From assembly GCF_000337575.1 (NCBI RefSeq), contig NZ_AOIM01000013.1, forward strand, positions 1 through 64,000: a stretch of 64,000 nucleotides of DNA, read 5' to 3'. The stretch is from Natrialba hulunbeirensis JCM 10989. Lineage in GTDB: Archaea; Halobacteriota; Halobacteria; Halobacteriales; Natrialbaceae. Shown here piece by piece: positions 23,288 through 56,605 of the stretch (position 1 is its first letter; each line of letters begins with the position of its first letter). A program made the position numbers and the translations under genes. Below the pieces are notes generated by a model that searched no databases, was not told where the DNA came from, and saw only the letters and a list, made by a program, of their open reading frames with translations.

Positions 23288-23309
23288 CTATGCACCGACC
23301 CAACAGTCT

Positions 23310-23430
23310 GAAACAACAGTTCGGGTGCCGGGTCCGGGATACAGGACGCGGAACGTGGGGTCCAAGACGCAGAACATGGAGACGGAACGCAGAATAGGGG
23401 GTATAAGAGGCAGAACACGGATACGGAACG
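23310..23430. repeat. Degenerate short tandem repeats
   Basis: The gap before the GST-like gene contains repeated, imperfect units of about 10-20 bp sharing the core (A)GACGC(A/G)GAAC or ACGGAACGC (for example near 23,342, 23,363, 23,381, 23,410 and 23,423). The units are too irregular for CRISPR and no protein is encoded. They look like slippage-derived filler. Confidence 0.5.
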
Positions 23431-23501
23431 CGAGCGACACACAGCAGACAGCGATTCGGGCGGTAACGAGTCTCTTTACGTCTTGATCCGTTACAGACCG
23501 T

Positions 23502-34748: not shown

Positions 34749-34769
<21 letters not shown>
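34628..34769. repeat. 142-bp direct repeat, tRNA-proximal copy
   Basis: The second copy of the repeat directly adjoins and includes the last 21 bases of the functional tRNA-Leu (34,749-34,769). It lies mostly downstream of the tRNA in its direction of transcription. See the distal copy for mismatches and hairpins. Confidence 0.93.
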
Positions 34770-34833
<64 letters not shown>

Positions 34834-35499: not shown

Positions 35500-35592
35500 G
35501 AGGCGGAGGAGATCGGGAGTACTCGAGACCGAGCGGGGTATCATCCGCAATCGGCGAGCAGCTTTTTAGTACCGCGCGACGGAGTGAGACCG

Positions 35593-38131: not shown

Positions 38132-39370
38132 ATGGGAATCGATTACTCACAGCTTCGCGATCCGAACGCCGAGTACACGATGCGCGAACTCTCGGCGGAG
38201 ACGATGGGCATAACACGCGAGCGTGGTGGCGATCGGGATCTGGAGATCACCGACGTGCAGACGACGATGGTCGACGGCAACTTCCCGTGGACGCTCGTTC
38301 GGGTCTACACCGACGCGGGCATCGTCGGCACCGGTGAGGCCTACTGGGGCGCGGGCGCGCCGGAACTCATCAAGCGCATGGCACCCTTCCTCCGTGGCGA
38401 AAATCCGCTCGACATCGACCGACTCACCGAACACCTCGTCCAGAAGATGTCCGGTGAGGGTTCGATCGGCGGGGTGACTGTAACGGCAATCTCGGGGATC
38501 GAAATCGCGCTGCACGATCTGGCCGGCAAAGTGCTCGACGTACCGGCGTACCAGCTGCTCGGTGGCAAGTACCGCGACGAGATCCGTGTCTACTGCGACT
38601 GCCACACCGAGGAGGAAGCGGACCCGATCGCCTGCGCGGACGAAGCCGAGCGTGTGGTGGACGACCTGGGATACGACGCCCTCAAATTCGACCTCGACGT
38701 GCCCTCCGGACACGAGAAGGACCGGGCAAATCGACACCTTCGCGAACCCGAAATCGAGCACAAAGCGAGCATCGTCGAGGCCGTTACCGACCGCGTCGGC
38801 TCACGCGCAGACGTGGCCTTCGACTGCCACTGGACGTTCTCCGGCGGTAGCGCGAAACGCCTTGCCAGACGGCTCGAGGAGTACGACGTCTGGTGGCTCG
38901 AAGATCCCGTTCCGCCGGAGAACCACGACGTCCAGCGCGAGATTTCCCACCAGACATCGACGCCGATCGCCGCCGGCGAGAACGTCTACCGAACCCATGG
39001 CCAGCGCCGACTCATCGAGGAGCAAGCCGTCGACATCATCGCCCCCGACATGCCCAAAGTTGGGGGGATGCGAGAAACGCAGAAGATCGCCGACCTCGCA
39101 GACCTCTACTACATGCCCGTCGCGATGCACAACGTCGCCTCCCCCATCGCGACGATGGGCGGCGTCCACGTCGCCGCCTCGATCTCGAACTCGCTTGCAC
39201 TCGAGTACCACTCCTACGAACTCGGCTGGTGGGAAGACCTGGTCGAGGAGGACGTGATCGAAGACGGCTACATCGAGGTGCCAGAGGAGCCGGGACTGGG
39301 CGTTACACTGGACATGGACGCCGTTGCGGAGCGTATGGTCGACGGCGAGGAACTCTTCGACGAGACGTGA
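38132..39370 (+). CDS. gnaD: Gluconate dehydratase, first copy
   Basis: A 412-residue enolase-superfamily enzyme that dehydrates D-gluconate to 2-keto-3-deoxygluconate in the haloarchaeal Entner-Doudoroff pathway. Mandelate-racemase-type residues are in place: the Lys in ALKFDLDVPSG, metal ligands in AFDCHWTFSG, WWLEDPVPPE and AAGENVYRTHG, and the His in VAMHNVASP. The start at 38,132 gives MGIDYSQLRDPNAEYTMRELS, matching the second copy at 52,879 residue for residue in layout. By hand alignment the two proteins differ at about 47 of 412 positions, with no gaps. A role on a related sugar acid such as xylonate is possible. Confidence 0.85.
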   Translation: MGIDYSQLRDPNAEYTMRELSAETMGITRERGGDRDLEITDVQTTMVDGNFPWTLVRVYTDAGIVGTGEAYWGAGAPELIKRMAPFLRGENPLDIDRLTEHLVQKMSGEGSIGGVTVTAISGIEIALHDLAGKVLDVPAYQLLGGKYRDEIRVYCDCHTEEEADPIACADEAERVVDDLGYDALKFDLDVPSGHEKDRANRHLREPEIEHKASIVEAVTDRVGSRADVAFDCHWTFSGGSAKRLARRLEEYDVWWLEDPVPPENHDVQREISHQTSTPIAAGENVYRTHGQRRLIEEQAVDIIAPDMPKVGGMRETQKIADLADLYYMPVAMHNVASPIATMGGVHVAASISNSLALEYHSYELGWWEDLVEEDVIEDGYIEVPEEPGLGVTLDMDAVAERMVDGEELFDET

Positions 39371-39416
39371 TGTAATAGTACACCATAATTATACAATCGC
39401 CGTGCGTATCAGAGGT

Positions 39417-41627
39417 ATGGCTCGTGAAGACACTGACAGGATCGAAAGCGGCGACGGCTCTCACCATCCCGGCCCGCCCCGCTTTGTCACCGTCGGCGAG
39501 GGACTGATCAACCCGAACGGCGACGAGATGGAGACGCGCGACGAACTCGCACCGTGGAATCTCGATCGGAATCCAGATGGCGAGTTCGTCTGGAACGTCG
39601 CAGACGCACCCGAAGAGTCCACTGCTACCCCCACCGACGCGCCAATCGCGGAGTTCGTCCCCGACGTTCCCGGTGAGTACACACTCGTTCTCGAGGCCCC
39701 TGACGGCGAGCACGAACTCACGGTTCGTGCGTTTCCGCAGCAGGCGGACAAGAGCGGACAGCCGCGTCCGCAGGTCCGACTCGAGGCGACCGTCGACACG
39801 GATCGGGATTCGGATCCGAATCGGAATCCCAATCGAATCCAGTTTGCGGCGACGACGAAACTGGCGGGCAGCGACGCAACAGCGGACGACGAAACCCAAA
39901 CCGACCTGACCGTCGAATACTACATCGACGATCGGAGCGCACTCGAGTTGGACGACCGGAACGGGATTCGCACCGCCGAACTCGTCGAGCAGGAACTCGA
40001 GTACCCCGTTCGCGTCTATGCGGTTGCGGTCACCGACGACGGCCGGTATTCGATTCCTGACGCAGTGGAACTCGATTCAGAACCCGGCGCTGACGGTGTC
40101 CAACTCGAACGCCCCTTCGAACCGCCGTCCTGGGTCGAAGACGCGGTCGTCTACGAAATTTTCACGCGTCGGTTTCCAGACCAGGACGACCCGACCTTCG
40201 AGACGATCGCGGATCGCGTCGATCACCTTGCCGACCTCGGTGTCGACGTACTCTGGCTCACGCCGATGCTCGAGACGGACCGCGGCTTCGGCACGCCGGA
40301 CAGCCAGGGCGGCCCGCACGGCTATCACACGGACGATTACCTTCAGGTCGACCCGGATCTGGGCACGCTGGCCGATTTCGAGGCGCTGGTCGATGCCTGC
40401 CACGACCACGACATCCGGGTCGTTTTCGACCTGGTGATCAACCACACCGGGGATACGCATCCGTTCTACGAGGCCGCCGTCGACGACTCCCATCCAGAGC
40501 ACGAGCGCTACCGCGACTGGTACCGCTGGGAGGACTTCGAGGAGCGAGATGCGGACACCTACTTCGGCTGGGATGGCATCCCGAACCTCGATCACAGCAA
40601 CCCAGCCGTGCGCGCGTACTTACTCGAGGTGATCGACTTCTGGGCACCGCTGGTCGACGGCTTCCGCACAGACGTTGCCTGGGGCGTCCCGCTTGGCTTC
40701 TGGACAGAGGTTTCCGATCGACTGCGCCGGTACGACGCGGAGTTCTTCCTGCTCGATGAAACCATCCCCTCGGATGTCGAGATGGGTGGCGGCCGATTCC
40801 ACATGCATCACGACGACGTGTTGCACGATACACTCGAGTCGGTTGCCGCGGCGGCTGTGTCTGCAGATGGGGCTGGCGGTACCGGACGTAATGAAGAAGG
40901 ATGGCGCAGAGAAGCGGAAGCAGAAGCAGAAAACAGCGACACAGACACCGAAAACGCCGTCGCCGACACCTTCTCCGACATGTCCGTCGACGCCAGCGAC
41001 GGCGCCAGCGCGATCCTCGACGCGGTCGACGAACGTGCCCGCCGCGGCACACACCCAGACTCGGAGTGGCTCCTCTACGTCGAAAACCACGACACCGACC
41101 GCTTCCTCACCGAACACGGCCGCGACGCACAGCAGGCCGCTGCCGCCGCCACCTTCACACTTCCCGGCTCGCCGATGCTCTACTACGGTCAGGAAACCGG
41201 TCTCACCGAGCGCCGCGAACCCATGAACTGGGGTGCGTTCGATGCGGCGCTACTCGAGTACTACCACCAGCTCTGTGACCTTCGTCAGTCGGTGCCGGCG
41301 CTCCAGCGCGCGGCGGCACTCGAGCGGGTGTCGTACGAGGCATCGACAAAGTATGCAGTTGCGTACGCGCGTGACGCATCGACGGCGGACCGGGCGGTGC
41401 AGTCGGATCAAACGGACGCCGAGGACGGGCCAGAGCGTGTTCTCATCGTCCTCAATTTCAGCCCGGAGCCGACGACGGTGCGGGTGAACGAGCGCGTGTC
41501 GGGTCCGGATCTGCTCTCCGGTGCACAGGTCGTCAGCCAGAGCGACGGAGACGAGTCCGACTGGGAGCGAACAGTGACTGTCGATTCGGCGGTGGTACTC
41601 GAGTCCGAGGGTTCGGCTACGGAGTAG
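39417..41627 (+). CDS. GH13 alpha-amylase family enzyme (neopullulanase/cyclomaltodextrinase-like)
   Basis: A 736-residue glycoside hydrolase, no signal peptide, so intracellular. An N-terminal beta-sandwich-type region runs to about residue 235 and the (beta/alpha)8 barrel follows. The four GH13 regions are DLVINHTGD (about 340), GFRTDVAWG with the nucleophile Asp (about 414), LLDETIPSD with the acid Glu (about 446) and YVENHDTDR (about 556). An acidic low-complexity insert (GGTGRNEEGWRREAEAEAE, about residues 482-520) separates regions III and IV. It starts 46 bp after gluconate dehydratase and likely cuts imported maltodextrins or cyclodextrins. Confidence 0.88.
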   Translation: MAREDTDRIESGDGSHHPGPPRFVTVGEGLINPNGDEMETRDELAPWNLDRNPDGEFVWNVADAPEESTATPTDAPIAEFVPDVPGEYTLVLEAPDGEHELTVRAFPQQADKSGQPRPQVRLEATVDTDRDSDPNRNPNRIQFAATTKLAGSDATADDETQTDLTVEYYIDDRSALELDDRNGIRTAELVEQELEYPVRVYAVAVTDDGRYSIPDAVELDSEPGADGVQLERPFEPPSWVEDAVVYEIFTRRFPDQDDPTFETIADRVDHLADLGVDVLWLTPMLETDRGFGTPDSQGGPHGYHTDDYLQVDPDLGTLADFEALVDACHDHDIRVVFDLVINHTGDTHPFYEAAVDDSHPEHERYRDWYRWEDFEERDADTYFGWDGIPNLDHSNPAVRAYLLEVIDFWAPLVDGFRTDVAWGVPLGFWTEVSDRLRRYDAEFFLLDETIPSDVEMGGGRFHMHHDDVLHDTLESVAAAAVSADGAGGTGRNEEGWRREAEAEAENSDTDTENAVADTFSDMSVDASDGASAILDAVDERARRGTHPDSEWLLYVENHDTDRFLTEHGRDAQQAAAAATFTLPGSPMLYYGQETGLTERREPMNWGAFDAALLEYYHQLCDLRQSVPALQRAAALERVSYEASTKYAVAYARDASTADRAVQSDQTDAEDGPERVLIVLNFSPEPTTVRVNERVSGPDLLSGAQVVSQSDGDESDWERTVTVDSAVVLESEGSATE

Positions 41628-41774
41628 GTCTGTTTCGGTTCGCGAATCTGAGGCCTCGATTTCATCGCACGGTCGCTGAATCAGCACATAGAGTGTACCA
41701 TTGCTGGAGGTCACCCGCCTCAGTAGTTTGTTCTTAGACCAGTACGGATTAGTATCATCGTCTATCAGTTGAGA

Positions 41775-42212
41775 ATGATTGATATGAACCGTCGAACTGC
41801 TCTAGCGATGATTAGCACGGGGGTGACAGCATGGGGTGCTGGCTGCCCCTCTATCAACAGAGCTGGTCCTGTTGCGTTCCAACTCATGAACGTTACAGAG
41901 GAGACACAGCACGTTGCTGTTACGCTCTCGGAGCACGAGGGAGAGACAGTACTGAGTGAATCCTATGAAATCGGTGAACGAAAGCCAACAGGCGAAGCAA
42001 CTGTGATTCGGGAAGACGAATTCGTCGAAGCACGTACTGACGACCGGTTCACTATCGATCTTGAACTCTCTAGCGGTGAATCTGCGGAGAGCGGATTTCG
42101 AGTGATGTGTATGGGCAGAGAGAACAGTACGGATGTATTCGTAGCAGAGATACGAGCGTCGCGTGAGGAGAACGACACCTATTTTGTATTTGACCAATCT
42201 GTCTGCGGTTGA
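41775..42212 (+). CDS. Small putative Tat lipoprotein
   Basis: A 145-residue protein with twin arginines (MNRRTALAMISTGVTAWGAGC) and a cysteine in a lipobox-like position near residue 20, so it is probably a Tat-exported lipoprotein. The mature part is beta-rich (TQHVAVTLSEHEGETVLSESYEIG). The ATG at 41,784 may be the real start; 41,775 and TTG 41,769 are upstream in frame. Function unknown, perhaps unrelated to the sugar genes on either side. Confidence 0.6.
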   Translation: MIDMNRRTALAMISTGVTAWGAGCPSINRAGPVAFQLMNVTEETQHVAVTLSEHEGETVLSESYEIGERKPTGEATVIREDEFVEARTDDRFTIDLELSSGESAESGFRVMCMGRENSTDVFVAEIRASREENDTYFVFDQSVCG

Positions 42213-42355
42213 GTTTCGCAAAACCAGCCACTACGGTCAGCGGTACGGCAAATAGAGTCCGTTTCGATCAGATATCCGACAGCGTTTGCGTCGACGAAAA
42301 GCCGATCACAGAGAGGGAGCGATCGGGAAAGAAACAGAGCGTGAGTACGGCCCGA

Positions 42356-43336
42356 TCAGCCTTCCATCCCGCCAAACGAGAGCCCGCTCTCGACGTAGCT
42401 CTGGGCGAAGAAGTAAATCAGCGCGACGGGCATCGCGAACAGGATCGCGAACGCCGAGAACTGAGTCCACGGCGTGTCGTACTGGCCGGCCGTCGCGAGC
42501 GCGTAGAGTTCGACCGAGAGCGTGTAGTTCTCCGGACTGAGTAGCGTTCGCGCGACGATGAACTCGTTCCAGCCTGCGAGGAAGGTGAACACCAACACGA
42601 CGGCGATACCGGGCTTCGAGAGCGGCAAGATCACCTCGCGAATGACTTCCCAGCGTCCCGCACCGTCGATGACGGCAGCCTCCTCGTAGGAGACCGGAAT
42701 GTTGTCCATGAACGTCTTGAGTAGCCACGTGTTGAACGGAATCGCGCCTGCGGCGTAGAACAACCCGAGCACGAGCAGGTTGTTACTCAGGCCGAAGTTG
42801 ACGAACAAGACATAGAGTGCGATGAGCGTCGCAATCGACAGGCCCGCACCGACCTGCGTGAACAGGACGTAGCCGTAGAGGATCTTCTTCCGGCCGCGGA
42901 ACTCGTGGCGTGAGAGTGCGTACGCGCCGGGGATGACGACCGACATCGAGACCGAGACGGTCACGAAGACGACGATCAGGCTGTTGAGCAGCGCGTCCGT
43001 GAACGACGACTCGAACAGCACCCAGCGGTAGGCATCGAGATTGTACGTCGACGGATCCGCGAAGACGCCCTCGGTGCTCATCAGTCCCGCACCTTCGGAG
43101 AGCGAGGCCGTGAAGATCCAGTAGATCGGGAACATAAGCACGACGAGAACGGCAATCGCACCGCCGGTCCCGGCCACTGTCTTGGCGAGATCACGAACGC
43201 TTCGCTTTCCGGTTCGGACCTGTTCGAGGGTCAGTCTGACCGTTCTGGCGGCCCGCATCGGCCAGGTCACCTTCTCGTGTGCCCAGGTCGTGAGCACGCT
43301 GATGACGTTCGCGAGGATGGCGACGACCGCGATCAT
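42356..43336 (-). CDS. Sugar ABC transporter permease, MalG-like
   Basis: A 326-residue permease. The N-terminal extension (MIAVVAILANVISVLTTW) precedes a MalG-type core of six helices. The EAA loop that contacts the ATPase is EEAAVIDGAGRWEVIREVILPLSKPGIAVV. It ends with the family-type SYVESGLSFGGMEG. Its start overlaps the stop of the MalF-like gene by 4 bp, so the two are translationally coupled. It should form the pore with that gene and move maltose/maltodextrin-type sugars. Confidence 0.9.
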   Translation of the reverse strand: MIAVVAILANVISVLTTWAHEKVTWPMRAARTVRLTLEQVRTGKRSVRDLAKTVAGTGGAIAVLVVLMFPIYWIFTASLSEGAGLMSTEGVFADPSTYNLDAYRWVLFESSFTDALLNSLIVVFVTVSVSMSVVIPGAYALSRHEFRGRKKILYGYVLFTQVGAGLSIATLIALYVLFVNFGLSNNLLVLGLFYAAGAIPFNTWLLKTFMDNIPVSYEEAAVIDGAGRWEVIREVILPLSKPGIAVVLVFTFLAGWNEFIVARTLLSPENYTLSVELYALATAGQYDTPWTQFSAFAILFAMPVALIYFFAQSYVESGLSFGGMEG

Positions 43337-44367
43337 GCGGAATCCACCCCCTCAGCGAGGTTGCCCTTTCTGACGGCGAGCCACATGAACAGACCAACGA
43401 ATGCGATTGCGGTGACCATAATTGCAGACGCGTAGGCGTACTGATTGAGTTCGATTGCCTCCCGATAGCCGTAGACGATGAGCAACTCGTTCTGGCGTGA
43501 CGGACCACCCGAGTTGAAGATCCACGGGATGAGGAACTGCTGGAACGAGGTCGCGGCGGTCAGGATCGACGCGAACATGACCGGCCGCTTGACTGCTGGA
43601 AGCGTCACGTGAACGAATCGGTGGAGGTACCCCGCACCGTCAACCTTGGCTGCGTCGTGTAGCTCCATTGGAACGTCCTGCAGCGCACTCACGATGATGA
43701 TCACCATGAACGGATACGCCAGCCAGACCTCCGTCGTGACGTATGCCATAAATGCACTCCAGCGACCGCTGAGCCAGCTCACTGGCATGTCCACGAGCAG
43801 AAACTCCGGCACCGAAACGGCGACGAAGAACAGCGCCTGGTCGACGACGCCTGCAAGCGTCGTGACGGCGCTGTTGTACGTCGCTAACAGCTCGTTGAAC
43901 GGACCGAATCTGGCACCGCTGAACATCCCGCGCCAGACGGTGATGATGAAAATCGCCGGCAGCCCCATCGGGATGATGACGATCGCTCGCATGTATCGCT
44001 TTCCGACGACGCGAGCATGTGTCAGTAACATCGCGAGGCCGAGTCCGACGACGATCTTGATTACCAGGCTCACTGCCAGGAACAGCCAGGTTATCCCGAA
44101 GGACGTCCAGAACTGACTATCGGTGAAGAGGTCGACGTAGTTGTCGAACCCGACGAAGTTCGTGTCGCCACCGATGACCGTTCCTGCGTGGGTCGCGTCG
44201 GTCATCGAGAGATAGACCAGAAACGCGATCGGGAACAGCATGAACGACAGGAACAACACCGCACCCGGTGCGACGAGCAAGAGCCCAAACAGGTTGAGGT
44301 TGCGCGTATCGAACGGGAGCAATCGCTGACTCTCCGCAGACACGCGATCGAGGAGTGACGTAGACAT
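43333..44367 (-). CDS. Sugar ABC transporter permease, MalF-like
   Basis: A 344-residue permease with an N-terminal cytoplasmic tail, then six to seven helices (LFGLLLVAPGAVLFLSFMLFPIAFLVYL first). The EAA loop is ELHDAAKVDGAGYLHRFVHVTLPAVKRPVMFA near residue 235. It pairs with the MalG-like permease. It starts 38 bp after the solute-binding protein stop and is clearly in the same operon. Confidence 0.9.
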   Translation of the reverse strand: MSTSLLDRVSAESQRLLPFDTRNLNLFGLLLVAPGAVLFLSFMLFPIAFLVYLSMTDATHAGTVIGGDTNFVGFDNYVDLFTDSQFWTSFGITWLFLAVSLVIKIVVGLGLAMLLTHARVVGKRYMRAIVIIPMGLPAIFIITVWRGMFSGARFGPFNELLATYNSAVTTLAGVVDQALFFVAVSVPEFLLVDMPVSWLSGRWSAFMAYVTTEVWLAYPFMVIIIVSALQDVPMELHDAAKVDGAGYLHRFVHVTLPAVKRPVMFASILTAATSFQQFLIPWIFNSGGPSRQNELLIVYGYREAIELNQYAYASAIMVTAIAFVGLFMWLAVRKGNLAEGVDSA

Positions 44368-44405
44368 GGCGTGAAGGTACTAACTACAGCTGGGACCGGC
44401 GACGG

Positions 44406-45608
44406 TTAGTCCCAGCGACCGCGAATCTCTTCGGCTGCCGCTTCCATCGCTTCGGCCGGCTCTTCGCTCTCGTTGAACACGCGCTCGAGTGCCTCCTCGA
44501 GTGGCGTGAAGACGAGGTCCATCCGTGGGTCGGCCGGCATCGGCGTTCCCATCTCGACGGTCTCGACGAAGGTATCGACGTCCTCACCGAGATCGTCGCT
44601 CTCTGCGTACTCCTGGTGGACCGGGATCAGGCCGTGTCGCTCGGCGTTGTCGACGATCACGTCCTCGTTGGTCGTGTACCACTCCGCCCAGTCGATGGTC
44701 GTCTCGAGTGTCTCCTCGTCTGCGCCGTCGAGTCCCGAGGTGAAGTACCAGACCTGAATGCCCGTGTAGGGGGTCGGCGAACCGCCGTCGACATCCGGCA
44801 ACGGCGCGAGCGTCGCGTCGACACCGGCGTCACGGAAGCCACCGACCTGCCACGGTCCGTTGATCGCGAACGGCGCGTTGCCGTCGTTGAACGGGGCCAT
44901 CTGTGACCCGTATTCCGGATCAGACGGCACGTACTCCCAGAGGTTCTCCTGAAGCAGTTCGAGACCCTCGATGAACTCGTCGTCTTCGATGCCGAGTTCG
45001 CCGGTGTCCTCGTGGAAGATTCGACCGCCGAACGCGTGCAAGAAGCCGCTAACGAAGTACGGGTCGACCGGTGGGTACGAGAGTCCCCACTGGTTGTTGG
45101 CAGGGTCGTGGTAGTCGTCCATGATCTCGACCATCTCCTCAAGTGTCTCCGGTGGCTCGTCGACCAGATCCGGATTGTACATGAGCGTCACCGTCTCGGA
45201 CGCGTAGGGAAGGCCGTAGGTGTGACCCTCCCACTGAACTGCGTCGACGGCGTCGGCGGTGAACTCGCTCTCGAGGTCGAGATTCAGATCGCCACTGGCG
45301 TCGTAGCCGAACTCCTGGTCGTGGTAGCGGCCGAGCCAGTCGTGTGCCCACGCGAACGTTTCAGGGCCGTCACCGGCTGGAATCGCCGTCTCGAGCTGGT
45401 CTTCCATATCGGCGATGTTGTCCGCGTTGAGTTCGTTGTCACGACCCTCGTTGAACGCGTCGAGGTGCTCTTCGAGCGTCTCCTCTTCGGCGTCCTCGAA
45501 CTCGTTCCAGAGCGTCGTTCCCTGGTCTTCGTCGCCGAGACATCCTGCGACCGTCAGCATCGTGGCCCCCCCGATCCCCGCGAGGACTTGCCTGCGTTGC
45601 ATTGGCAT
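44406..45608 (-). CDS. Sugar ABC transporter solute-binding lipoprotein
   Basis: A 400-residue extracellular binding protein of the MalE/family 1 type. The signal peptide is Tat/lipoprotein-like (MQRRQVLAGIGGATMLTVAGC) with lipobox Cys near residue 23. The mature protein has aromatic stretches typical of sugar sites (WAHDWLGRYHDQEFGYD, WGLSYPPVDPYFVSGFLHAFGG, NGPWQVGGFRDAG). First gene of the operon, divergent from the ATPase gene. Start could be the ATG at 45,608 or 45,602. Confidence 0.9.
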   Translation of the reverse strand: MPMQRRQVLAGIGGATMLTVAGCLGDEDQGTTLWNEFEDAEEETLEEHLDAFNEGRDNELNADNIADMEDQLETAIPAGDGPETFAWAHDWLGRYHDQEFGYDASGDLNLDLESEFTADAVDAVQWEGHTYGLPYASETVTLMYNPDLVDEPPETLEEMVEIMDDYHDPANNQWGLSYPPVDPYFVSGFLHAFGGRIFHEDTGELGIEDDEFIEGLELLQENLWEYVPSDPEYGSQMAPFNDGNAPFAINGPWQVGGFRDAGVDATLAPLPDVDGGSPTPYTGIQVWYFTSGLDGADEETLETTIDWAEWYTTNEDVIVDNAERHGLIPVHQEYAESDDLGEDVDTFVETVEMGTPMPADPRMDLVFTPLEEALERVFNESEEPAEAMEAAAEEIRGRWD

Positions 45609-45623
45609 GGTGGAAACAGTGAT

Positions 45624-45840
45624 GAATTATATCTTCATATATTTAATTGTTAGGATCCAGTATCCCGGGTTGTCGACCGAAAGCGACCCGCATACGCCCG
45701 TTTCGTGCGCGCGGACTGGCTACTCGTCGGAAACGGAGACGGATGAACACAGCGACTCAGTCCAGCTCACAACCCATCGAACTGTAATTAGTGGTGTAAT
45801 ATTTCTTCTAACATCTCTGATTTTGGGAAAGGACTTTATG
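45624..45840. promoter_or_regulatory. Divergent promoter region of the sugar ABC operon
   Basis: This gap lies between the binding-protein gene (minus) and the ATPase gene (plus). Minus-strand TATA-like sequences are at 45,624-45,647, about 20-35 nt from the binding-protein ATG. A plus-strand TATA-like stretch (CTTTATG, 45,834-45,840) lies about 27 nt before the ATPase ATG at 45,865. Both genes therefore look leaderless. I did not find an operator I can name. Confidence 0.5.
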
Positions 45841-45864
45841 TTCGCTCACCGAACGAACACGGAA

Positions 45865-47004
45865 ATGGCACGTGTCAGGGTCGAATCGCTCCGAAAGGAA
45901 TACGACGTTGGAACGGTCGTCGCGGTCGACGATCTGAACCTCGAAATCGAGGACGGCGAGTTCGTGACCGTCGTCGGTCCCTCCGGCTGTGGGAAGACAA
46001 CGACACTTCGAATGCTGGCCGGACTCGAGGAGCCAACCAGCGGTCGGATCGAGATCGGCGACGAGGACGTTACCGATGTCCACGCCAAGAACCGGGACGT
46101 CGCGATGGTGTTCCAGAACTACGCGCTGTACCCGCACAAGACCGTCTTCGAGAACATGGCGTTCGGGCTCCGGATGAGTACCGACCTCGACGCGGACGAG
46201 CGTGAACGGCGCGTCGTCGAGACGGCCGAGATGATGGATATCGAAACCTTACTCGAGGACAAGCCCGACGAGCTCTCCGGCGGACAGAAACAGCGCGTCG
46301 CACTCGGTCGTGCAATCGTCAGAGAGCCCGACCTGTTCCTGTTCGACGAGCCGCTGAGTAATCTGGACGCCAAACTCCGAACGACGATGCGAGCCGAGAT
46401 CCAGCGTCTGCAGGACGAACTCGGTATTACGGCGGTCTACGTCACACACGACCAGCACGAGGCGATGACGATGGGTGACCGAATCGTCATCCTGAACGAC
46501 GGCGAACTGCAACAGCAGGGTGCACCGACTGACGTCTACGAGAACCCCACGAACAAGTTTGTCGGCGGCTTTATCGGCTCGCCGTCGATGAACTTCATCG
46601 ATGTCACTGTCGATCAGGTCAGCGACGGCCTCCAGCTAACCGACACCGATAGCGACTTTTCGTTTACGCTGTCCGCAGCGTACGCCACCGCGAACGACGC
46701 GGCACTCGGCATGGACCGCTACACGCTGGGTATTCGACCGGAGAACGTCGAAATCGCACGCGGCCAGCCGTCGAACACGATCTCGGCCGGTGTCGACGTC
46801 GTCGAACCGGTCGGGTCGGACAACTTCCTCCATCTCGACGTCGGCCCGGAGTTCATCGCTCGCGTGCCATCCGACGTCGATCTCGAAGCCGGTGAGACGG
46901 TTTCGATCACCTTCGACGAGTCGGACATCCACCTGTTCGACATCGAAACCGGCGCGGAAATCCTCGGTCGCGATCCGGAGTCCCAGCCGGCGACAGCGCC
47001 GTAA
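45865..47004 (+). CDS. Sugar ABC transporter ATPase, MalK/UgpC-like
   Basis: A 379-residue ATPase. Walker A is GPSGCGKTT near residue 38, Q-loop NYALYPHKTVFENM, ABC signature LSGGQKQRVALGRAIVREPDLFLFDEPLSNLD with Walker B, and H-loop YVTHDQHEA. A C-terminal regulatory OB domain (TOBE-like, LGIRPENVEIARG) follows, as in MalK. The ATG at 45,865 is the family start; 45,838 is upstream. It energises the MalF/G-like permeases encoded divergently. Confidence 0.92.
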   Translation: MARVRVESLRKEYDVGTVVAVDDLNLEIEDGEFVTVVGPSGCGKTTTLRMLAGLEEPTSGRIEIGDEDVTDVHAKNRDVAMVFQNYALYPHKTVFENMAFGLRMSTDLDADERERRVVETAEMMDIETLLEDKPDELSGGQKQRVALGRAIVREPDLFLFDEPLSNLDAKLRTTMRAEIQRLQDELGITAVYVTHDQHEAMTMGDRIVILNDGELQQQGAPTDVYENPTNKFVGGFIGSPSMNFIDVTVDQVSDGLQLTDTDSDFSFTLSAAYATANDAALGMDRYTLGIRPENVEIARGQPSNTISAGVDVVEPVGSDNFLHLDVGPEFIARVPSDVDLEAGETVSITFDESDIHLFDIETGAEILGRDPESQPATAP

Positions 47005-47125
47005 CGGGACGGGCCGGCGAGCCGAGATCTCCGTCAAGAAACCCGCAAGACGAAGCGTTCTTTGTTCGAATCGTCTGCCAACCGCGCAGCGACGAGTCAC
47101 CGGAACCACGAACGCCGAGACCCAG

Positions 47126-49267
47126 TCAGTCCTGTACCGGCGCGCAATCCGAGTTCATCGCTGACGCCGGCTCCTGCTCGACCGTCGCTAGCTCCGCCGC
47201 CGTCGCGAGTCGCAACGCGTGCGGCCAGCCAAGCGGTGTCGCGCTATCGGCCGTTCCGTCGTCGAAGAACTGCTCTGGAAGGTACTCCCCGTCGCGGCGG
47301 AGCTGTCCGCCCGGCTCGACGAGCGCGAGTAGCTCCCGTGCCCGCTCGTCGAACCGCGAGGCGGCCTCGTGGTCGTGTGCGGCGAGTAGCGCCCCCATCT
47401 CGGCCGCGGCGTGTGCGCCCCATGCCGTCGTCACGGACCAGATCTTCGCGTCGGCCTGCTCGTCGACGCGCCACGGATCGTCCTCGAAGCGAGCGACGCC
47501 CTCGAGTGGCCCCTCGGGATCGCGGTAGAGCCCGTCGATGGTCGTCTCGATGTGGGTTACCAGCCGGGCGAGTCGGTCAGCATCAACGCCGACGCCGCCA
47601 GCATGTTCGCTAGTTCCGCTTGTGTCTGACTGGTCACGCTCGAGTACGTCGAACTCGCGGTGGGCCGCAGCGAGCGCGAAGGTGCTGCCGTCGAGGCGGT
47701 CGTCGAGGTCGCCGTCGTCGAGTCGGAGCGCGTAGCAGCCGCGGTCAGCGACCCAGAGGTCGTCGAGTGCGCTGTAGACGGTGCGAGCCCGGTCCCGTGC
47801 GCGTTCACGGTGCTCGTCTGCGATGGGGGCGCGGGCGATCGCCGCGTAGGCCTCGAGGAACGTCGCGGCGGTGTGGGTGAACCGACCGGTCATGTTCTCC
47901 CAGGCGTTCTGGACGCGTTCCGGCAGGCCGTCGTCGGCGAGCGTCGCGTCGAGACCGTCGAGTGCGGCGACGAGCGCCTTGCGGACCTGCTCGTCGTCGG
48001 CGTCGACGGTGCGGAGGTACGTCGCGAGATAGGCGGCGACGCTCGCGGTCTGGTCAGCCTGATAGTCCGTCGAATCAGCGGCCTCCTCGACGCGGCCGTG
48101 TGCCCAGCCGGGTGCGAGCCGTCCGTTTCGCGGCCAGACGCGGTGGGGCCAGGTGCCGTCTGCGAGCTGGCTCGTGGTGTAGAAGTGTGCGCTCTGGCGG
48201 TGCCACTGCTCGAGTCCGAGGCCGGCGCGCCGGTCGGCCGCGAGCAGGAAGCCGGCGATTTCGGCGTCGTCCCGGAACCACGTGTAGCCGTAGCCGCCCG
48301 AATAGCGGTAGAACGGGTCGAATTCGGGGCCGGCAATGCGCGCGCCGGTCGGTGCACGAAGCAGACGCAGCGCCCGCAAGTCGGCGATCGGATCGGCGAT
48401 ATCGACGGTTTCGGCGTCGTCTGTCGCCGCTCGAACGCCCTCGAACGCGGTTTCGGCCTGCGCTTGGGCCGCCTCGAGGAGTGCATCGCGAGTTGCGTGC
48501 TCCGCAGCGCCGGCGCGGGCGCGTTTGAGCGCGCCAGTTCGTGACTCCTCACCCGCCTCCGAATCGGCGAGTAACGTCGCCACGGTCGTCGAGGCATCCG
48601 ATCCCGAGAGCTCGACTTCGGCCAGTGTGATCGGGCTCAGTCGCGCCTCCTCGTACCGGCCGTCGTCCTCACCGCGAGGCAGTTCAGTCGGCTCGGACTC
48701 GAGTAGCTCCGAAAATGTCGCGGGAATCTGTCCGGTGACCTCGATGTCGGTCGCGGCGGTCAGGAAGTCGTGTTCACGGTCGTGGTGGACTTCGACGGCG
48801 TCGCCGTGGAGTAGTTGGCCGATGCGGCTGACGCGGTCTTCGGGGGCGAAGGCGACGCAGGCGTAGAGGGTTGCGTCCGGGTCGGTGTCGTCGCGCTCGT
48901 CGTCGGTAGAGAGGGAGAAGTGGGTGAGATGGAGGCGGCCGAGCGTGAGGTCGTACTGGGTAAGTGTGTGGCCGTCGACCTCGTGTGTGGTCTCCACGAG
49001 CGCCGTCTCACCGACGTAGCGCTGGTCGCCCGGTTCGTCGAGCCAGTAGAGCGTGTCGTCGAGTTCGAGACCGAACCGCGAGTGGTCGATACCAACCAGT
49101 CCCGAGAGCGGGTAGGAGTAGTCACTGAGCGCGCCGTTCGGTGCGACGTGGACGAGCCTGTCGTCGAAGCCGGAGAAGCGACCCGTCGTCGACCGGCGCT
49201 CGCCGGGGAATCGGCGGTCGTCACCCCGTGAGCGCTTGACGTCGTTCAGGGCGCTGTGAAGTTTCAT
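47126..49267 (-). CDS. GH15 glucoamylase-like enzyme
   Basis: A 713-residue glycoside hydrolase of family 15 with no signal peptide. An N-terminal beta-sandwich domain (to about residue 260) is followed by a short linker and the (alpha/alpha)6 barrel. Barrel landmarks are YRYSGGYGYTWFRDDAEIAGF, DGTWPHRVWPRNG, and the acid Glu region RVQNAWENMTG near residue 455. The base Glu region is EYLPEQFFDDG near residue 663. It should release glucose from the non-reducing ends of imported oligosaccharides. It is divergent from the TrmB-type regulator gene. Confidence 0.87.
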   Translation of the reverse strand: MKLHSALNDVKRSRGDDRRFPGERRSTTGRFSGFDDRLVHVAPNGALSDYSYPLSGLVGIDHSRFGLELDDTLYWLDEPGDQRYVGETALVETTHEVDGHTLTQYDLTLGRLHLTHFSLSTDDERDDTDPDATLYACVAFAPEDRVSRIGQLLHGDAVEVHHDREHDFLTAATDIEVTGQIPATFSELLESEPTELPRGEDDGRYEEARLSPITLAEVELSGSDASTTVATLLADSEAGEESRTGALKRARAGAAEHATRDALLEAAQAQAETAFEGVRAATDDAETVDIADPIADLRALRLLRAPTGARIAGPEFDPFYRYSGGYGYTWFRDDAEIAGFLLAADRRAGLGLEQWHRQSAHFYTTSQLADGTWPHRVWPRNGRLAPGWAHGRVEEAADSTDYQADQTASVAAYLATYLRTVDADDEQVRKALVAALDGLDATLADDGLPERVQNAWENMTGRFTHTAATFLEAYAAIARAPIADEHRERARDRARTVYSALDDLWVADRGCYALRLDDGDLDDRLDGSTFALAAAHREFDVLERDQSDTSGTSEHAGGVGVDADRLARLVTHIETTIDGLYRDPEGPLEGVARFEDDPWRVDEQADAKIWSVTTAWGAHAAAEMGALLAAHDHEAASRFDERARELLALVEPGGQLRRDGEYLPEQFFDDGTADSATPLGWPHALRLATAAELATVEQEPASAMNSDCAPVQD

Positions 49268-49376
49268 CGTGACGGACGACTACAACCCCCACCGATTAAA
49301 GTTTGTTGTAAAATGTAATCTCACTTTTCGAGTTCCCGCGTGGAGGCCGTAACCGGCTTGCGAGCCCGGCGCAACC

Positions 49377-49391
49377 GTGAAACTTTTTCAC
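49377..49391. promoter_or_regulatory. Inverted repeat operator candidate between GH15 and trmB-like genes
   Basis: GTGAAA-CTT-TTTCAC is a perfect 6-bp inverted repeat with a 3-bp spacer, lying 34 bp before the regulator ATG and 110 bp before the divergent glucoamylase ATG. Its position fits an autoregulatory site. It does not match the published Halobacterium TrmB motif. Confidence 0.4.
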
Positions 49392-49424
49392 GCACCGTCG
49401 CAATCCGTGAAGTACTGTATACTC

Positions 49425-50516
49425 ATGGATACTGACGGGCTCGCCGACCTCCTCGAACGGTTCGGACTCTCCGAAAAGGAAATCGACACCTACCTCGCGA
49501 TTCTCGACCACGGCGCGTCGAAGGCGAGTACCATCGCCGACGCCGCCGACGTCTCGAAGCGCTACGTCTACAGCATCAGTGAGGAACTCGAGAACCGTGG
49601 CTTCGTGGAGGTCGACGACCATGCCGTCCCGACCGTGATCAGACCCGTCGATCCCGAAACCGTCGTCGACCGGCTCACCCGCAGCGTCGAAGACATCGAG
49701 CCCGAACTCCGCGAGCGCTATACCGCAACCGAACGCACCGGCGAGCAGTTCGAGGTGATCAAGTCCCGCCAGACCGTCGTCAAGCGACTCGAGGAACTGC
49801 TCGCGAGCGCCGACACCGAGGTGACGCTCTCGATTCCCGTCAGCATCCTCCCCCAGATTCGATCGACACTCGAGGAGACCGTCGACCGCGGCGTGCTCGT
49901 GCTCCTCCTGCTCGGTGCGACCGGCGGCGACGAACAGGATATCGCCTCACTTGCGGGTGCGGCGAGTACGGTGCGGACGTGGGACGCGCTGGTGCCGACG
50001 ATGCTCACCGTGGACCGCCAGCACGGCCTGCTCGCGCCGAGCCAGTTGCTCACGAGTTCGACGAGCGATACGCGCGCGATCGCGCTCTCACAGGAACAGC
50101 TCGTGCCGGTGCTCGCGGGCTCGTTCCTGGCGAACTACTGGCCGACCGCCGAGGAGCGCTACGTGACGACCCCGCGGGCGCTGCCCGAGACCTACGACGG
50201 ATTCCGGAACGCGGTGTTTCAGATCGCACTTCACCGCGCGACGGACACGGCGCTCGAAGCAACGGTGTCGGGAACTCCCGTTGGCGACGGAGACACCTCG
50301 ACCGCCCCGGGGACGCTCACCGGCCGAGTCGTCGACGTGCGTCAGAGTCTCGTTCGCCCGGAAACGTCGTCCGTTCCGATCGAGAACTCGTTCACGATCG
50401 AGGTGACAGACGAGAGCGCGGGAGAGGCCGAGCGCTACACGATCGGCGGAACCGGCGCGTTCCTCGAGGACTTCGAGGCCGAGTCGGTGACGCTCCGCGA
50501 ACTGAGCGGCGAGTAA
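49425..50516 (+). CDS. TrmB-family transcriptional regulator
   Basis: A 363-residue regulator. The N-terminal winged helix (LLERFGLSEKEIDTYLAILDHGASKASTIADAADVSKRYVYSISEELENRG) is typical of TrmB. The middle domain (residues about 110-260) includes a coiled region and a PLD-like fold, and the C-terminus is the sugar-binding domain (LTGRVVDVRQSL). TrmB proteins sense sugars and control sugar import and glycolysis/gluconeogenesis. The position between glucoamylase and the Entner-Doudoroff genes supports that role here. The ATG at 49,425 was chosen over GTG 49,377, which overlaps the inverted repeat. Confidence 0.88.
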   Translation: MDTDGLADLLERFGLSEKEIDTYLAILDHGASKASTIADAADVSKRYVYSISEELENRGFVEVDDHAVPTVIRPVDPETVVDRLTRSVEDIEPELRERYTATERTGEQFEVIKSRQTVVKRLEELLASADTEVTLSIPVSILPQIRSTLEETVDRGVLVLLLLGATGGDEQDIASLAGAASTVRTWDALVPTMLTVDRQHGLLAPSQLLTSSTSDTRAIALSQEQLVPVLAGSFLANYWPTAEERYVTTPRALPETYDGFRNAVFQIALHRATDTALEATVSGTPVGDGDTSTAPGTLTGRVVDVRQSLVRPETSSVPIENSFTIEVTDESAGEAERYTIGGTGAFLEDFEAESVTLRELSGE

Positions 50517-50654
50517 TAGAGTCGCCTGTGAGTAAATTTCTTGGTGAGTGGCCAGAAAGACGGAGTCGATGTGTAGAGATGCACTCCGTAATACGTCCGT
50601 CCGAAACGACCAGCCCGGTGAAAACTATCCGTCGGGCCCACGTGGAGACACCCA

Positions 50655-51302
50655 ATGACCGACAAACGAACCACCGAGGATCGAATCGTCGAGAGCGGCG
50701 TTATCGCCGTCCTGCGCGGCGTCAGCGAGGACCAGATCGTCTCCGTCTCACGCGCCCTCGCCGATGCTGGCGTCGAGGCACTCGAGATCACCGCCGACGG
50801 AACCCGTTCTGCCGAGATGATCGCCGACGTGGATCGTGAACTCGCGGACACCGACACCGTCATCGGCGCGGGAACTGTCCTCGACGCTGCGACGGCACAG
50901 TCGGTAATCGACGCGGGCGCGACGTTCGTCGTCTCGCCACACACCAGTCCCGAGGTCGTCCGGACGTGCAACCGCCACGGCGTGCTTGCAGCACCGGGTG
51001 TCATGACGCCGACCGAGGCCGTCACGGCGATGGAAGCCGGCGCGGATCTGTTGAAGATGTTCCCCGCCTCGACGGTCGGGCCGGGTCACATCGGTGCACT
51101 CAGCGGCCCGCTCGGCGATGTAGGTATTATTCCAACGGGTGGCGTCTCGCCCGACAACGTCGCGGACTTCTTCGACGCGGGCGCGGTCGCCGTCGGCGCG
51201 GGCGGTGCGATTCTCGACGACGAGGCCATCGAACGCGGTGACATGGAGCAGGTCCGCGAAACCGCCGAGACGTTCGTCGAGGCGGTCGAGGACGCCCGGT
51301 AG
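50655..51302 (+). CDS. eda: KDPG/KHG aldolase (Eda type)
   Basis: A 215-residue aldolase of the bacterial Eda family, which splits 2-keto-3-deoxy-6-phosphogluconate into pyruvate and glyceraldehyde 3-phosphate. Motifs are GVIAVLRGVS near residue 15, EITADGT with the acid Glu, GAGTV, and the Schiff-base Lys in DLLKMFPASTVGP near 137, then IIPTGGVSPDN for phosphate binding. It has the usual length. It is the last enzyme of the semi-phosphorylative Entner-Doudoroff route whose earlier steps lie just downstream. Confidence 0.93.
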   Translation: MTDKRTTEDRIVESGVIAVLRGVSEDQIVSVSRALADAGVEALEITADGTRSAEMIADVDRELADTDTVIGAGTVLDAATAQSVIDAGATFVVSPHTSPEVVRTCNRHGVLAAPGVMTPTEAVTAMEAGADLLKMFPASTVGPGHIGALSGPLGDVGIIPTGGVSPDNVADFFDAGAVAVGAGGAILDDEAIERGDMEQVRETAETFVEAVEDAR

Positions 51303-51688
51303 TAGTCGACACCCACGGTAGTTACTGCTGGTCCCGGACCACTGTTCACAATATGGCCGCCAGTGGCAGCGCTTGCCACAAAAATTAGTGCTGCAAGCCG
51401 TCGCGGGCGACGGTGCTAACAGTGACTGTACTGTATTGGGTCCGATACACCGACTAGCTGTTCGAACAGCAGTCGAGTCAGTACGACTGATGCAGCAACC
51501 GGTTAGCTTGATCGCCTGAGAGACTGGTCCGAGAGTGCCTCCAGCCGACGACTGAGAGTTGTACCTGATGTTCGCCGAGGGGTGCATCTCTGTCGGAATC
51601 CGAATAGGTACTGACGGTCAGACCGCGTTATTCAGAAGTTTACTACTGGAAGGGTAAATTTTTATTCCACTGGTCCCGTTGGTCGAGT
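51303..51688. other. 386-bp gap with glucose dehydrogenase promoter
   Basis: No gene is supported here. The right end holds AATTTTTATT at 51,657-51,666, a TATA-like box about 28 nt before the glucose dehydrogenase ATG, consistent with a leaderless transcript. A short paired stretch (CGTCGC-GGGCGACG, near 51,400) may be part of a terminator for the aldolase gene. The rest has no visible structure. Confidence 0.5.
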
Positions 51689-52756
51689 ATGAAAGCGATC
51701 GCTGTCGACCCAGGGGCCGGCCAACCCGCTCTCGTCGAGCGGCCACGCCCCGATCCCGAGCCAGGCGAAGCCCTCGTCCGGACGCTGCGCGTCGGTATCG
51801 ACGGCACCGACCACGAGGTGATCGCGGGCCACCACGGCGATCTCCCCGACGGAGCGGACGAGCTCGTCCTCGGCCACGAAGCCGTCGGCGTCGTCGAGGA
51901 TCCCAACGGGACGGCACTCGAGTCCGGCCAGTTCGTCGTGCCGACCGTGCGTCGGCGACCTGACGAGACCAACGAGTTCTTCGACCGCGGCGAGCCCGAC
52001 ATGGCCCCAAGCGGCGAGTACGTCGAGCGTGGAATCGTCGGCGCACACGGCTTTATGGCCGAGTACTTCACCAGTCCCGCGGAGTACCTCGTCCCGATTC
52101 CCGCGGAACTCGCACCGCTTGGCTTCCTCGTCGAACCGATCAGTATCACGGAGAAAGCACTCGAGCACGCCGTCGCGAGCCGATCCGCGTTCGAGTGGGA
52201 ACCCGACTCGGCGCTCGTCCTCGGGAACGGCCCGCTCGGGCTCATCACCCTCGCGATGTTCGAGTCGGTACTCGAGTTCGACCGGACCTACTGTCTGGGT
52301 CGCCGGGATCGGTCGCACCCGACGGTCGAACTGGTTTCGGAGCTGGGCGGTACCTACGTCGACTCACGAGAGACGCCGGTTGCAGAGATTCCGGCCGAAC
52401 ACGAGGCTGTCGACCTGGTCTATGAGGCGACGGGACACGCAAAGCACGCCTTCGAAACGGTCGAGGCGCTCGCGCCGAACGGGGTCGGTGTTCTGCTTGG
52501 AGTGCCAGAGCCCTGGAAGTTCGAAGTCGACGGCGGTCGGCTCCATCGGGAACTCGTCTTGCACAACAAGGCGCTGCTCGGGACGGTCAACTCCCACCGC
52601 GGGCACTTCGAGGCCGCGATCGACACGCTCGCACAGCTTCCAGACTGGTTCACCGAGGAACTCGCGGCCGGAGTGTACGACCTCGAGAACTATCGGGACG
52701 CCTTCGACGCGGGGGACGAGGTCGTCAAGACTGCGATCGAGTTCGACGGCGTCTGA
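51689..52756 (+). CDS. gdh: Glucose 1-dehydrogenase
   Basis: A 355-residue medium-chain dehydrogenase closely resembling the well-studied Haloferax mediterranei enzyme, which oxidises glucose to gluconolactone with NADP. The zinc site includes VGIDGTDHEV, LGHEAVGVV and the Glu in VEPISITEKALEHA. The cofactor-binding loop is LGNGPLGL near residue 179. Sequences PDMAPSGEYVERGIVGAHG and VLHNKALLGTVNSH match the halophilic enzyme closely. First step of the Entner-Doudoroff pathway; the gluconate dehydratase follows after 122 bp in the same direction. Confidence 0.95.
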   Translation: MKAIAVDPGAGQPALVERPRPDPEPGEALVRTLRVGIDGTDHEVIAGHHGDLPDGADELVLGHEAVGVVEDPNGTALESGQFVVPTVRRRPDETNEFFDRGEPDMAPSGEYVERGIVGAHGFMAEYFTSPAEYLVPIPAELAPLGFLVEPISITEKALEHAVASRSAFEWEPDSALVLGNGPLGLITLAMFESVLEFDRTYCLGRRDRSHPTVELVSELGGTYVDSRETPVAEIPAEHEAVDLVYEATGHAKHAFETVEALAPNGVGVLLGVPEPWKFEVDGGRLHRELVLHNKALLGTVNSHRGHFEAAIDTLAQLPDWFTEELAAGVYDLENYRDAFDAGDEVVKTAIEFDGV

Positions 52757-52878
52757 GTTTGGAGTGTTCGTTTGAGCGCCTGCACTGCAACGGGCGACTC
52801 GGAAACACAGACCGTCGAGGCGCGTTCGCACGCACCGGATGCAAAACTATTACTATCATAGGTGTAAGTATTCATTCC

Positions 52879-54117
52879 ATGGGTGTAGATTACACGCGGC
52901 TCCACGATCCGAACGCCGAGTACACGATGCGAGAGCTCTCGGCGGAGACGATGGGCGTGACACGCGAGCGCGGCGGCGGCCGCGACGTCGAGATTACCGA
53001 CGTGCAGACGACGATGATCGACGGCAACTTCCCGTGGACACTCGTCCGAATCTACACGGACGCGGGCATCGTCGGCACCGGCGAGGCCTACTGGGGTGCT
53101 GGCGCGCCGGAACTCATCGAGCGGATGGCGCCTTTCCTCCGTGGCGAGAACCCACTCGACATCGACCGGCTCACCGAACACCTCGTGCAGAAGATGTCCG
53201 GCGAGGGCTCGATCGGCGGCGTTACCGTGACGGCGATTTCGGGAATCGAGGTCGCACTGCACGACCTCGCGGGCAAGATTCTCGAGGTTCCCGCCTACCA
53301 GTTGCTCGGCGGCAAGTACCGCGACGAGGTCCGCGTCTACTGCGACTGTCACACCGAGGACGAGGCTGACCCGATTGCGTGTGCTGACGAGGCAGAACGC
53401 GTCGTCGAAGACCTCGGCTACGACGCCCTCAAATTCGACCTCGACGTCCCTTCGGGTCACGAGAAGGACCGCGCGAACCGCCATCTTCGCAAGCCCGAGA
53501 TCGAACACAAGGCCTCGATCGTCGAAGCCATCACGGAACGCGTCGGCTCGCGGGCCGACGTGGCCTTCGACTGCCACTGGACGTTCTCCGGTGGCAGCGC
53601 CAAGCGTCTCGCAAAGCGACTCGAGGAGTACGACGTCTGGTGGCTCGAGGACCCCGTCCCGCCGGAGAACCACGATGTCCAGCGCGAAGTGACCCAGTCG
53701 ACGACCACCCCAATCACCGTCGGCGAAAACGTCTACCGCAAACACGGCCAGCGCCGCCTCCTCGAAGAGCAAGCGGTCGACATCATCGCCCCCGACATGC
53801 CGAAAGTCGGCGGGATGCGCGAAACCAGGAAAATCGCCGACCTCGCGGACCTCTACTACGTCCCCGTCGCGATGCACAACGTCGCCTCACCCGTCGCAAC
53901 CATGGCCAGCGCCCACGTCGGCGCGGCCATCTCGAACTCGCTCGCCGTCGAGTACCACTCCTACGAACTCGAGTGGTGGTCGGATCTCGTCGAGGAGGAT
54001 GTAATCGAGGACGGCTACATCGAGATTCCCGAGGAGCCGGGACTCGGTGTTACCCTCGACCTGGATACTGTCGAGGAGCACATGGTCGAGGGTGAGGAGT
54101 TGTTCGACGAAGCGTAA
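52879..54117 (+). CDS. gnaD: Gluconate dehydratase, second copy
   Basis: A 412-residue enzyme with the same length and about 88-89% identity by hand count to the copy at 38,132. All catalytic and metal-binding residues are kept (ALKFDLDVPSG, AFDCHWTFSG, WLEDPVPPE, TVGENVYRKHG, VAMHNVASP). It is adjacent to glucose dehydrogenase and so is the better candidate for the main gluconate dehydratase. Substitutions are conservative and cluster after residue 260. Confidence 0.9.
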   Translation: MGVDYTRLHDPNAEYTMRELSAETMGVTRERGGGRDVEITDVQTTMIDGNFPWTLVRIYTDAGIVGTGEAYWGAGAPELIERMAPFLRGENPLDIDRLTEHLVQKMSGEGSIGGVTVTAISGIEVALHDLAGKILEVPAYQLLGGKYRDEVRVYCDCHTEDEADPIACADEAERVVEDLGYDALKFDLDVPSGHEKDRANRHLRKPEIEHKASIVEAITERVGSRADVAFDCHWTFSGGSAKRLAKRLEEYDVWWLEDPVPPENHDVQREVTQSTTTPITVGENVYRKHGQRRLLEEQAVDIIAPDMPKVGGMRETRKIADLADLYYVPVAMHNVASPVATMASAHVGAAISNSLAVEYHSYELEWWSDLVEEDVIEDGYIEIPEEPGLGVTLDLDTVEEHMVEGEELFDEA

Positions 54118-56287: not shown

Positions 56288-56605
56288 CGTTGTGTTCACG
56301 TGGAAACTCTGGCACGGTGCCCGTGTTTCGGTGCCTGGGGTGGGAGGCGAACCGAGGGGACCGCGGCCAGGTGGGGTGTGGGTAGGGTGTGGGTGTGGGG
56401 TGATGACGGTTAGGCGAGGTTCCAGCGGTCGCGGAGAGTCAGTGACCCGTTGTGTTGTCACCGTTCACGCGCATAAATGTCGGCCAGCAGCGGCCGGGTG
56501 TGGCGAGTAACGAGCGCCTACACGAGTTATCGGGCATCCAAGAGAGTGAGAACAATGGCGTGCTGGCCGGCGTTTTATGGCCCTCGTCACGGTGGAACGT
56601 CTACG
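56288..56605. other. 318-bp gap with a G-quadruplex motif
   Basis: No gene is supported. At 56,373-56,400 the plus strand has five runs of three or four G separated by loops of two or three bases, a strong G-quadruplex pattern. It lies 86-113 bp upstream of the minus-strand GH15 start and over 200 bp from the plus-strand protease start. Confidence 0.65.

Follow-up and report, generated by a model that had tools for sequence, protein, structure and literature searches.

Recurrent concerted evolution of protein-coding genes has been catalogued by Wang and Chen (2018, PMC6053082), whose seven archaeal entries all come from methanogens. Among prokaryotes, protein-coding duplicates rarely evolve in concert over long times, and no haloarchaeal case is catalogued. 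In the polyploid Haloferax volcanii, intermolecular gene conversion is efficient and long-tract (PMC8223754). For the sugar regulator TrmB, the motif TACT-N7-8-GAGTA has been described in Halobacterium (VNG1451C; PMC4158304), and ChIP-seq in Haloarcula hispanica placed TrmB on the promoter of gdh (PMC10817205).

The locus described here lies in a window of 64,000 nt from Natrialba hulunbeirensis JCM 10989 (the whole stretch of DNA that was analysed, to which all positions refer) and contains two copies of gnaD on either side of a block of sugar genes. As in the cases of Wang and Chen (PMC6053082), a paralog at a syntenic position resembles the other copy of its own lineage more than its syntenic orthologs elsewhere, a pattern that covers more than five species and comes with long identical tracts; unlike that catalogue, which holds no haloarchaeal gene and no sugar dehydratase, the gnaD promoters have demonstrably diverged. 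Conversion as in Haloferax volcanii (PMC8223754) is a plausible engine for gnaD homogenisation, although there it equalised chromosome copies, i.e. alleles, and not two loci on one chromosome. A putative operator matching the haloarchaeal TrmB regulon (PMC4158304, PMC10817205) is found 5′ of the right gnaD copy and, weakly, of gdh, with a TrmB gene in the cassette. The enzyme families Gdh, GnaD and KDPG aldolase are those of the semi-phosphorylative Entner–Doudoroff pathway of Haloferax volcanii (Sutter et al. 2016, as cited in PMC10817205). Unlike in Haloferax volcanii, gdh, gnaD and kdpgA are clustered in the window with amylase and importer genes, and gnaD is present twice. The corresponding Haloferax volcanii genes are dispersed. 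In our reading, the locus probably represents gnaD duplicates at fixed positions that are homogenised by conversion, the right copy having a TrmB-type promoter and the left copy being freed from it, around an old cassette that is lost by ordinary deletions.

The genes of the site are as follows.
35584–36921, plus strand: alaX-like alanyl-tRNA editing protein (tRNA_SAD Pfam match, family synteny), left landmark of the conserved site
38132–39370, plus strand: gnaD_L, the left copy, gluconate dehydratase family (MR/MLE), Arg at residue 9, without an upstream TrmB-type element
39417–41627, plus strand: GH13 alpha-amylase, MalA-like (Pfam), probable start ATG 39417 in a frame open from 39324
42356–43336, minus strand: MalG-like permease (profile matches)
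43333–44367, minus strand: MalF-like permease (profile matches)
44406–45608, minus strand: MalE-like solute-binding lipoprotein (profile matches)
45865–47004, plus strand: MalK/UgpC-type ATPase (profile matches)
47126–49267, minus strand: GH15-like glucoamylase/oligosaccharide amylase (weak GH15 match, under the Pfam cut-off, and TIGR01577 match)
49425–50516, plus strand: TrmB-family sugar-sensing regulator (profile matches), with a predicted start
50655–51302, plus strand: KDPG aldolase (profile matches)
51689–52756, plus strand: glucose dehydrogenase, gdh (Glu_dehyd_C, E 2e-92)
52879–54117, plus strand: gnaD_R, the right copy, gluconate dehydratase family, His at residue 9
54254–56461, minus strand: GH15/trehalase-like glycosidase, an optional neighbour of gnaD_R in relatives (synteny)
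56477–57757, plus strand: HtrA-like serine protease with PDZ domain, right landmark of the conserved site

The preliminary description had reported two co-oriented 412-codon gnaD genes, about 88–89% identical as proteins, around a 13.5-kb block with amylase, ABC importer, glucoamylase, regulator, aldolase and glucose dehydrogenase. Pfam confirmed this content, with a weak match for GH15, and both open reading frames are on the plus strand with 1239 nt including the stop codon (412 aa), are separated by 13,508 nt and encode proteins of 88.6% identity. The same description had called the genes near-identical long direct repeats, which is apt for the proteins and does not hold for the DNA, where identity is 83.6%, dS is approximately 0.83 (dN approximately 0.062) and the longest identical run is 35 nt. 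Third codon positions account for 154 of the 203 differences, and the similarity is confined to the stretch from start to stop, the 150-nt flanks aligning at 39–46%, i.e. at background. Both copies are under purifying selection (dN/dS approximately 0.07), and the segments KFDLD, DCHW, EDPV and GEN, putative MR/MLE active-site segments, are identical between them. The likeness is true homology and not chance. Because of the DNA identity, the third-position bias, the dS, the short longest run and the end of similarity at the limits of the reading frames, the copies are regarded as two functional, selected genes and not as a fresh repeat. With 35 nt as its longest run, the pair is too diverged to be a good recombination substrate now, and no further direct repeat of at least 40 nt was found between 36 and 56 kb of the window.

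The MR_MLE domains of gnaD_L are well matched (PF13378, E 2e-62; PF02746, E 7e-14), and gnaD scores below both the curated gluconate dehydratase equivalog NF040790 (210.9 bits, cut-off 750) and the galactonate dehydratase model NF010624 (216.7 bits, cut-off 311). Gluconate is predicted as substrate from the gdh and kdpgA neighbours and the haloarchaeal gnaD precedent. Likewise, the cassette would take up and hydrolyse maltodextrins by means of the amylase, the CUT1-type importer and the GH15 enzyme, and the glucose would then be oxidised via the semi-phosphorylative Entner–Doudoroff route by Gdh, GnaD and KDPG aldolase; a KDG kinase is absent from the block. These substrates are putative. The cassette TrmB reaches 134 bits with the Halo TrmB model, under its cut-off of 500. 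The block is not a single operon, malG/F/E and the GH15 gene being on the minus strand. All profile matches within it are to metabolic, transport and regulator families, with no integrase or transposase, and a small open reading frame at 41769–42212 has no Pfam match. Elsewhere in the window, a tRNA-Leu (gag) gene is located at 34749–34833 (minus strand), just left of the mbf–alaX landmark and approximately 3.3 kb from gnaD_L, with no sign of use as an integration site. Positions 22001–24000, over a secreted-protein-like open reading frame (21794–22921, minus strand), have a GC content of 0.50 compared to approximately 0.62 around them and were possibly acquired recently.

The site was compared across approximately 65 Natrialbaceae genomes, for some of which names are predicted (G003, N. 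magadii; G019, Natronobacterium gregoryi; G033, Haloterrigena turkmenica; G044, a Halobiforma). The frame purF–mbf–alaX–[variable]–htrA–spt5–PHP–polX is conserved across the family. Two gnaD copies and the full block are present in the window, Natrialba SSL1, G003, N. chahannaoensis, Natronorubrum texcoconense, Nr. halalkaliphilum, Halobiforma haloterrestris, G044, G024, G030 and G051, and two copies around a shrunken block in Nr. thiooxidans, Natronolimnohabitans innermongolicus and G029 (each with kdpgA–gdh) and in Natronolimnohabitans A-GB9 (kdpgA). Natrinema and Haloterrigena carry the left copy only, with the block kept or shortened. The right copy only is found in neutrophilic Natrialba and Natronococcus, both with cassette genes retained, and in Halopiger, Nr. 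bangense, Nr. sulfidifaciens and others. A bare single gnaD occurs in Halovivax, G011, the metagenome-assembled genome L115, Natronobiforma and two separate Natrinema-group lineages. Close sisters differ, as in the case of G041 and Natrinema ejinorense, and loss of the block is frequent. Trees of the cassette genes mostly return the genus groups of the flank tree, branch order above the genus being weakly supported, so that the block appears to be mainly inherited and lost and not repeatedly imported. The maltodextrin/glucose block is thus old, occupies a conserved site and has mostly been passed on vertically. In the neutrophilic Natrialba asiatica (L092, 4507–5967), a GntP-family gluconate permease by a redoxin-like gene sits where gnaD_L and part of the block would be. 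In Natribaculum breve and Natronosalvus (L139 and L150, at 10001), the gnaD in alaX context groups with sequences of other haloarchaeal families, which suggests in-place replacement by a foreign allele.

The origin of the arrangement can be discussed against this distribution. A Campbell-type single crossover, by which a circle with gdh–gnaD–amy–mal–GH15–trmB–kdpgA entered a resident alaX–gnaD–htrA site and gave gnaD–[cassette]–gnaD, would explain where the block sits, why gnaD is there twice and how the order came to be permuted at other sites; it concerns origin and not loss. In line with such an event, several early-branching relatives (L107, L071, L115, L121) lack the cassette and have a single gnaD, in the order alaX–gnaD–spt5, and the alaX–gnaD spacing is alike in bare and two-copy loci. 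Moreover, Halostagnicola and N. swarupiae carry gdh–gnaD–(amy)–mal–GH15–trmB at a different site, the permuted order that a circle opened elsewhere would give. On the other hand, neither an integrase nor a plasmid or circle was seen, the root of the family is uncertain so that the permuted order may be a later relocation, and the chimera signal expected inside gnaD has been erased by conversion. We consider a Campbell-type origin unlikely, though not far-fetched.

Whatever their origin, the two copies differ in their leaders. Matches to the TrmB motif were located 5′ of gnaD_R and of gdh.
52848–52867, plus strand: TrmB-type element TATTACTATCATAGGTGTAA, 28.0 bits, 11 nt 5′ of gnaD_R, the best of 3 matches above 8 bits in the 64 kb
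51638–51657, plus strand: weak TrmB-type element, 11.1 bits, 31 nt upstream of gdh

The third match above 8 bits in the 64 kb scanned is an unrelated site at 9906. The gnaD_R element reads TACT-N7-GTGTA, one mismatch away from the published form; none was found before gnaD_L in the window. Across the family, a TACT-N7-GAGTA-type element is present 11–13 nt 5′ of gnaD_R in all 15 two-copy genomes and degraded 5′ of gnaD_L in all 15. The 20 single-copy genes at the left position all have it intact. A gap-tolerant pattern separates the copies completely (15/15 right, 0/15 left), although it was fixed after the leaders had been viewed. The de novo motif, derived from single-copy genomes only (TaTTACTAccTt.cGAGT, with its 3′ end 13 nt upstream of the start codon), agrees with the TrmB site described in Halobacterium (PMC4158304). 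It was not tuned in this manner and gave median scores of 23.0 bits for right copies, 4.6 for left copies and 25.6 (minimum 20.2) for the 20 single genes at the left position (Mann–Whitney, left vs right p = 4e-4, left vs single p = 1e-7). This motif mis-scores the two Halobiforma right copies, owing to a spacer that is shorter or longer by one base. Most left copies have kept the TATTAC half, possibly a TATA box, and lost the GAGT half, so that the operator may be gone with promoter function kept. Some of this conservation may reflect the core promoter, since the element lies across the place where the TATA box of a leaderless promoter is expected. In this scheme, gnaD_R and, more weakly, gdh would carry a TrmB-type operator that gnaD_L has lost; the cassette copy would be sugar-regulated together with gdh, and the alaX-side copy expressed independently of TrmB. 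Both the TrmB control and the separate expression roles are predictions.

The coding regions show a different history. Despite their fixed positions, left and right gnaD copies of the same genus cluster together in the gene tree, and constraining the 15 left copies to one clade is rejected (dlnL 600, p-AU 7e-115). Orthology of the left copies is also rejected lineage by lineage in Halobiforma (AU, 0.004), g25 (0.0004), N. thiooxidans (0.028), A-GB9 (9e-65) and G019 (1e-5), and not in the Natrialba lineage of the window (p 0.29) or N. innermongolicus (p 0.30). Identical tracts extend over 1128 nt in G019, 650 nt in A-GB9, 176 and 119 nt in Halobiforma and 95 nt in N. chahannaoensis (permutation p ≤ 0.0005). 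The last of these tracts is from a draft assembly and contains a join artefact; the tree used this copy with the duplicate trimmed. Weaker tracts were obtained for G051, G024, Nr. halalkaliphilum and G030 (p 0.003–0.013), and the window pair has no standout tract (permutation p 0.46). In terms of the definition of Wang and Chen (PMC6053082), which asks for at least five species, paralogs cluster within the lineage against syntenic orthologs in five lineages (seven species), the window lineage being non-significant, and conversion tracts lie within the gene in five genomes, the window genome excluded. In G019 the copies are approximately 2 Mb apart after a rearrangement (L049, L050) and still 99% identical, which indicates that homogenisation does not require proximity. 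The dS between the window copies is close to between-genus values, and together with the AU and tract results this points to conversion that is old or absent in the window lineage. Conversion spares the promoters and roughly the opening 10 codons. All 15 left copies have Arg at residue 9, and His stands there in 11/15 right copies and 80/83 other gnaD genes. No 3′-end residue distinguishes left from right consistently across genera. At least five lineages thus show concerted evolution of the copies, apparently through gene conversion, with the caveat that conversion and lineage-specific re-duplication are not separable by sequence alone in every lineage.

Independent, lineage-specific duplications on both sides of the block, in place of one old pair with conversion, would fit the gene-tree topology alone. 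They would, however, have to reproduce the same two positions and neighbours together with the left-specific Arg9 and promoter decay in all 15 genomes, and the left-copy leaders and residue 9 are, as largely shown, older than the genera and common across them despite the genus clustering. The mosaic in A-GB9, 650 nt identical and then 87–93% with sharp tract ends inside the gene, is also at odds with such duplications, which we regard as improbable. Assembly effects were recognised at several loci. An 84-nt internal duplication in both gnaD genes of N. chahannaoensis (L079 10001–11320, L046 1639–2952) and N. innermongolicus (L103, 410 and 4080) was rejected as a draft-assembly artefact, an 83-nt overlap joined by N, which arises where two gnaD copies share an identical stretch and would yield wrong public proteins. 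Similarly, the apparently truncated gnaD genes of G029 are due to assembly gaps (N runs) inside both genes.

According to the preliminary description, homologous recombination between the gnaD genes could excise the cassette as a circle, leave one chimeric gnaD behind and make the block prone to gain and loss. The outcome is as anticipated: the refuting pattern, with conversion absent and the complete arrangement present in every relative, does not occur, since conversion is clear among relatives and the block has been lost often in the approximately 65 genomes. The route is not, as no loss carries a clear loop-out signature. Both mapped deletions have their ends outside gnaD and do not involve a second gnaD: G041, compared to N. 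ejinorense, lacks approximately 10 kb, with one end 2 nt beyond the gnaD stop and the other within trmB, of which remnants are left, and Haloterrigena salina, compared to G053, lacks approximately 7.4 kb from approximately 21 nt past gnaD to the trmB start. Amylase and transport genes were lost with both gnaD copies kept in Nr. thiooxidans (L083), Natronolimnohabitans (L086, L103) and G029, as in the shrunken cassette of L048, and most single-gnaD genomes retain cassette genes. Strains with one gnaD and no cassette, which had been proposed as a check, do exist (alaX–gnaD–htrA in L085, L087 and L114), but these bare loci of the Natrinema group (Natrinema thermotolerans and Haloterrigena H1 groups) arose among genomes that already had one gnaD, and chimerism is unreadable after homogenisation. 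A close homologue of the cassette KDPG aldolase was absent genome-wide from Haloterrigena H1 and N. thermotolerans. Haloterrigena H1 was considered as proof of a loop-out chimera and set aside as such: its gnaD resembles left copies at residue 9 only, and its sister genomes likewise carry a single gnaD, so that it decides neither way. Thus, even with two co-oriented homologous copies flanking the block and clear recombination between them in relatives, as conversion, loop-out is highly improbable in view of the deletion ends, the short identical run of the window pair and the home site of N. swarupiae (L196), which is empty of any gnaD with alaX directly beside htrA. Rather, the frequent loss of the cassette is probably due to ordinary deletions that end outside gnaD, and direct repeats that frame a block need not be the route of its loss.

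In summary, concerted evolution together with the left-specific decay of the element makes the pair look like duplicates whose coding regions were homogenised and whose promoters were split. We give about an even chance to the wider view that gnaD is a duplicate maintained throughout the family, conversion equalising the enzymes and the promoters holding split roles, one TrmB-controlled and one freed. If true, haloarchaea would for the first time enter the short list of protein genes with long-lasting concerted evolution, and the unit kept separate would be the promoter with approximately 10 codons. As at least 15 genomes allow coding sequence, promoter and block to be followed separately, selection for an equal enzyme in two differently controlled copies becomes testable in this culturable group.
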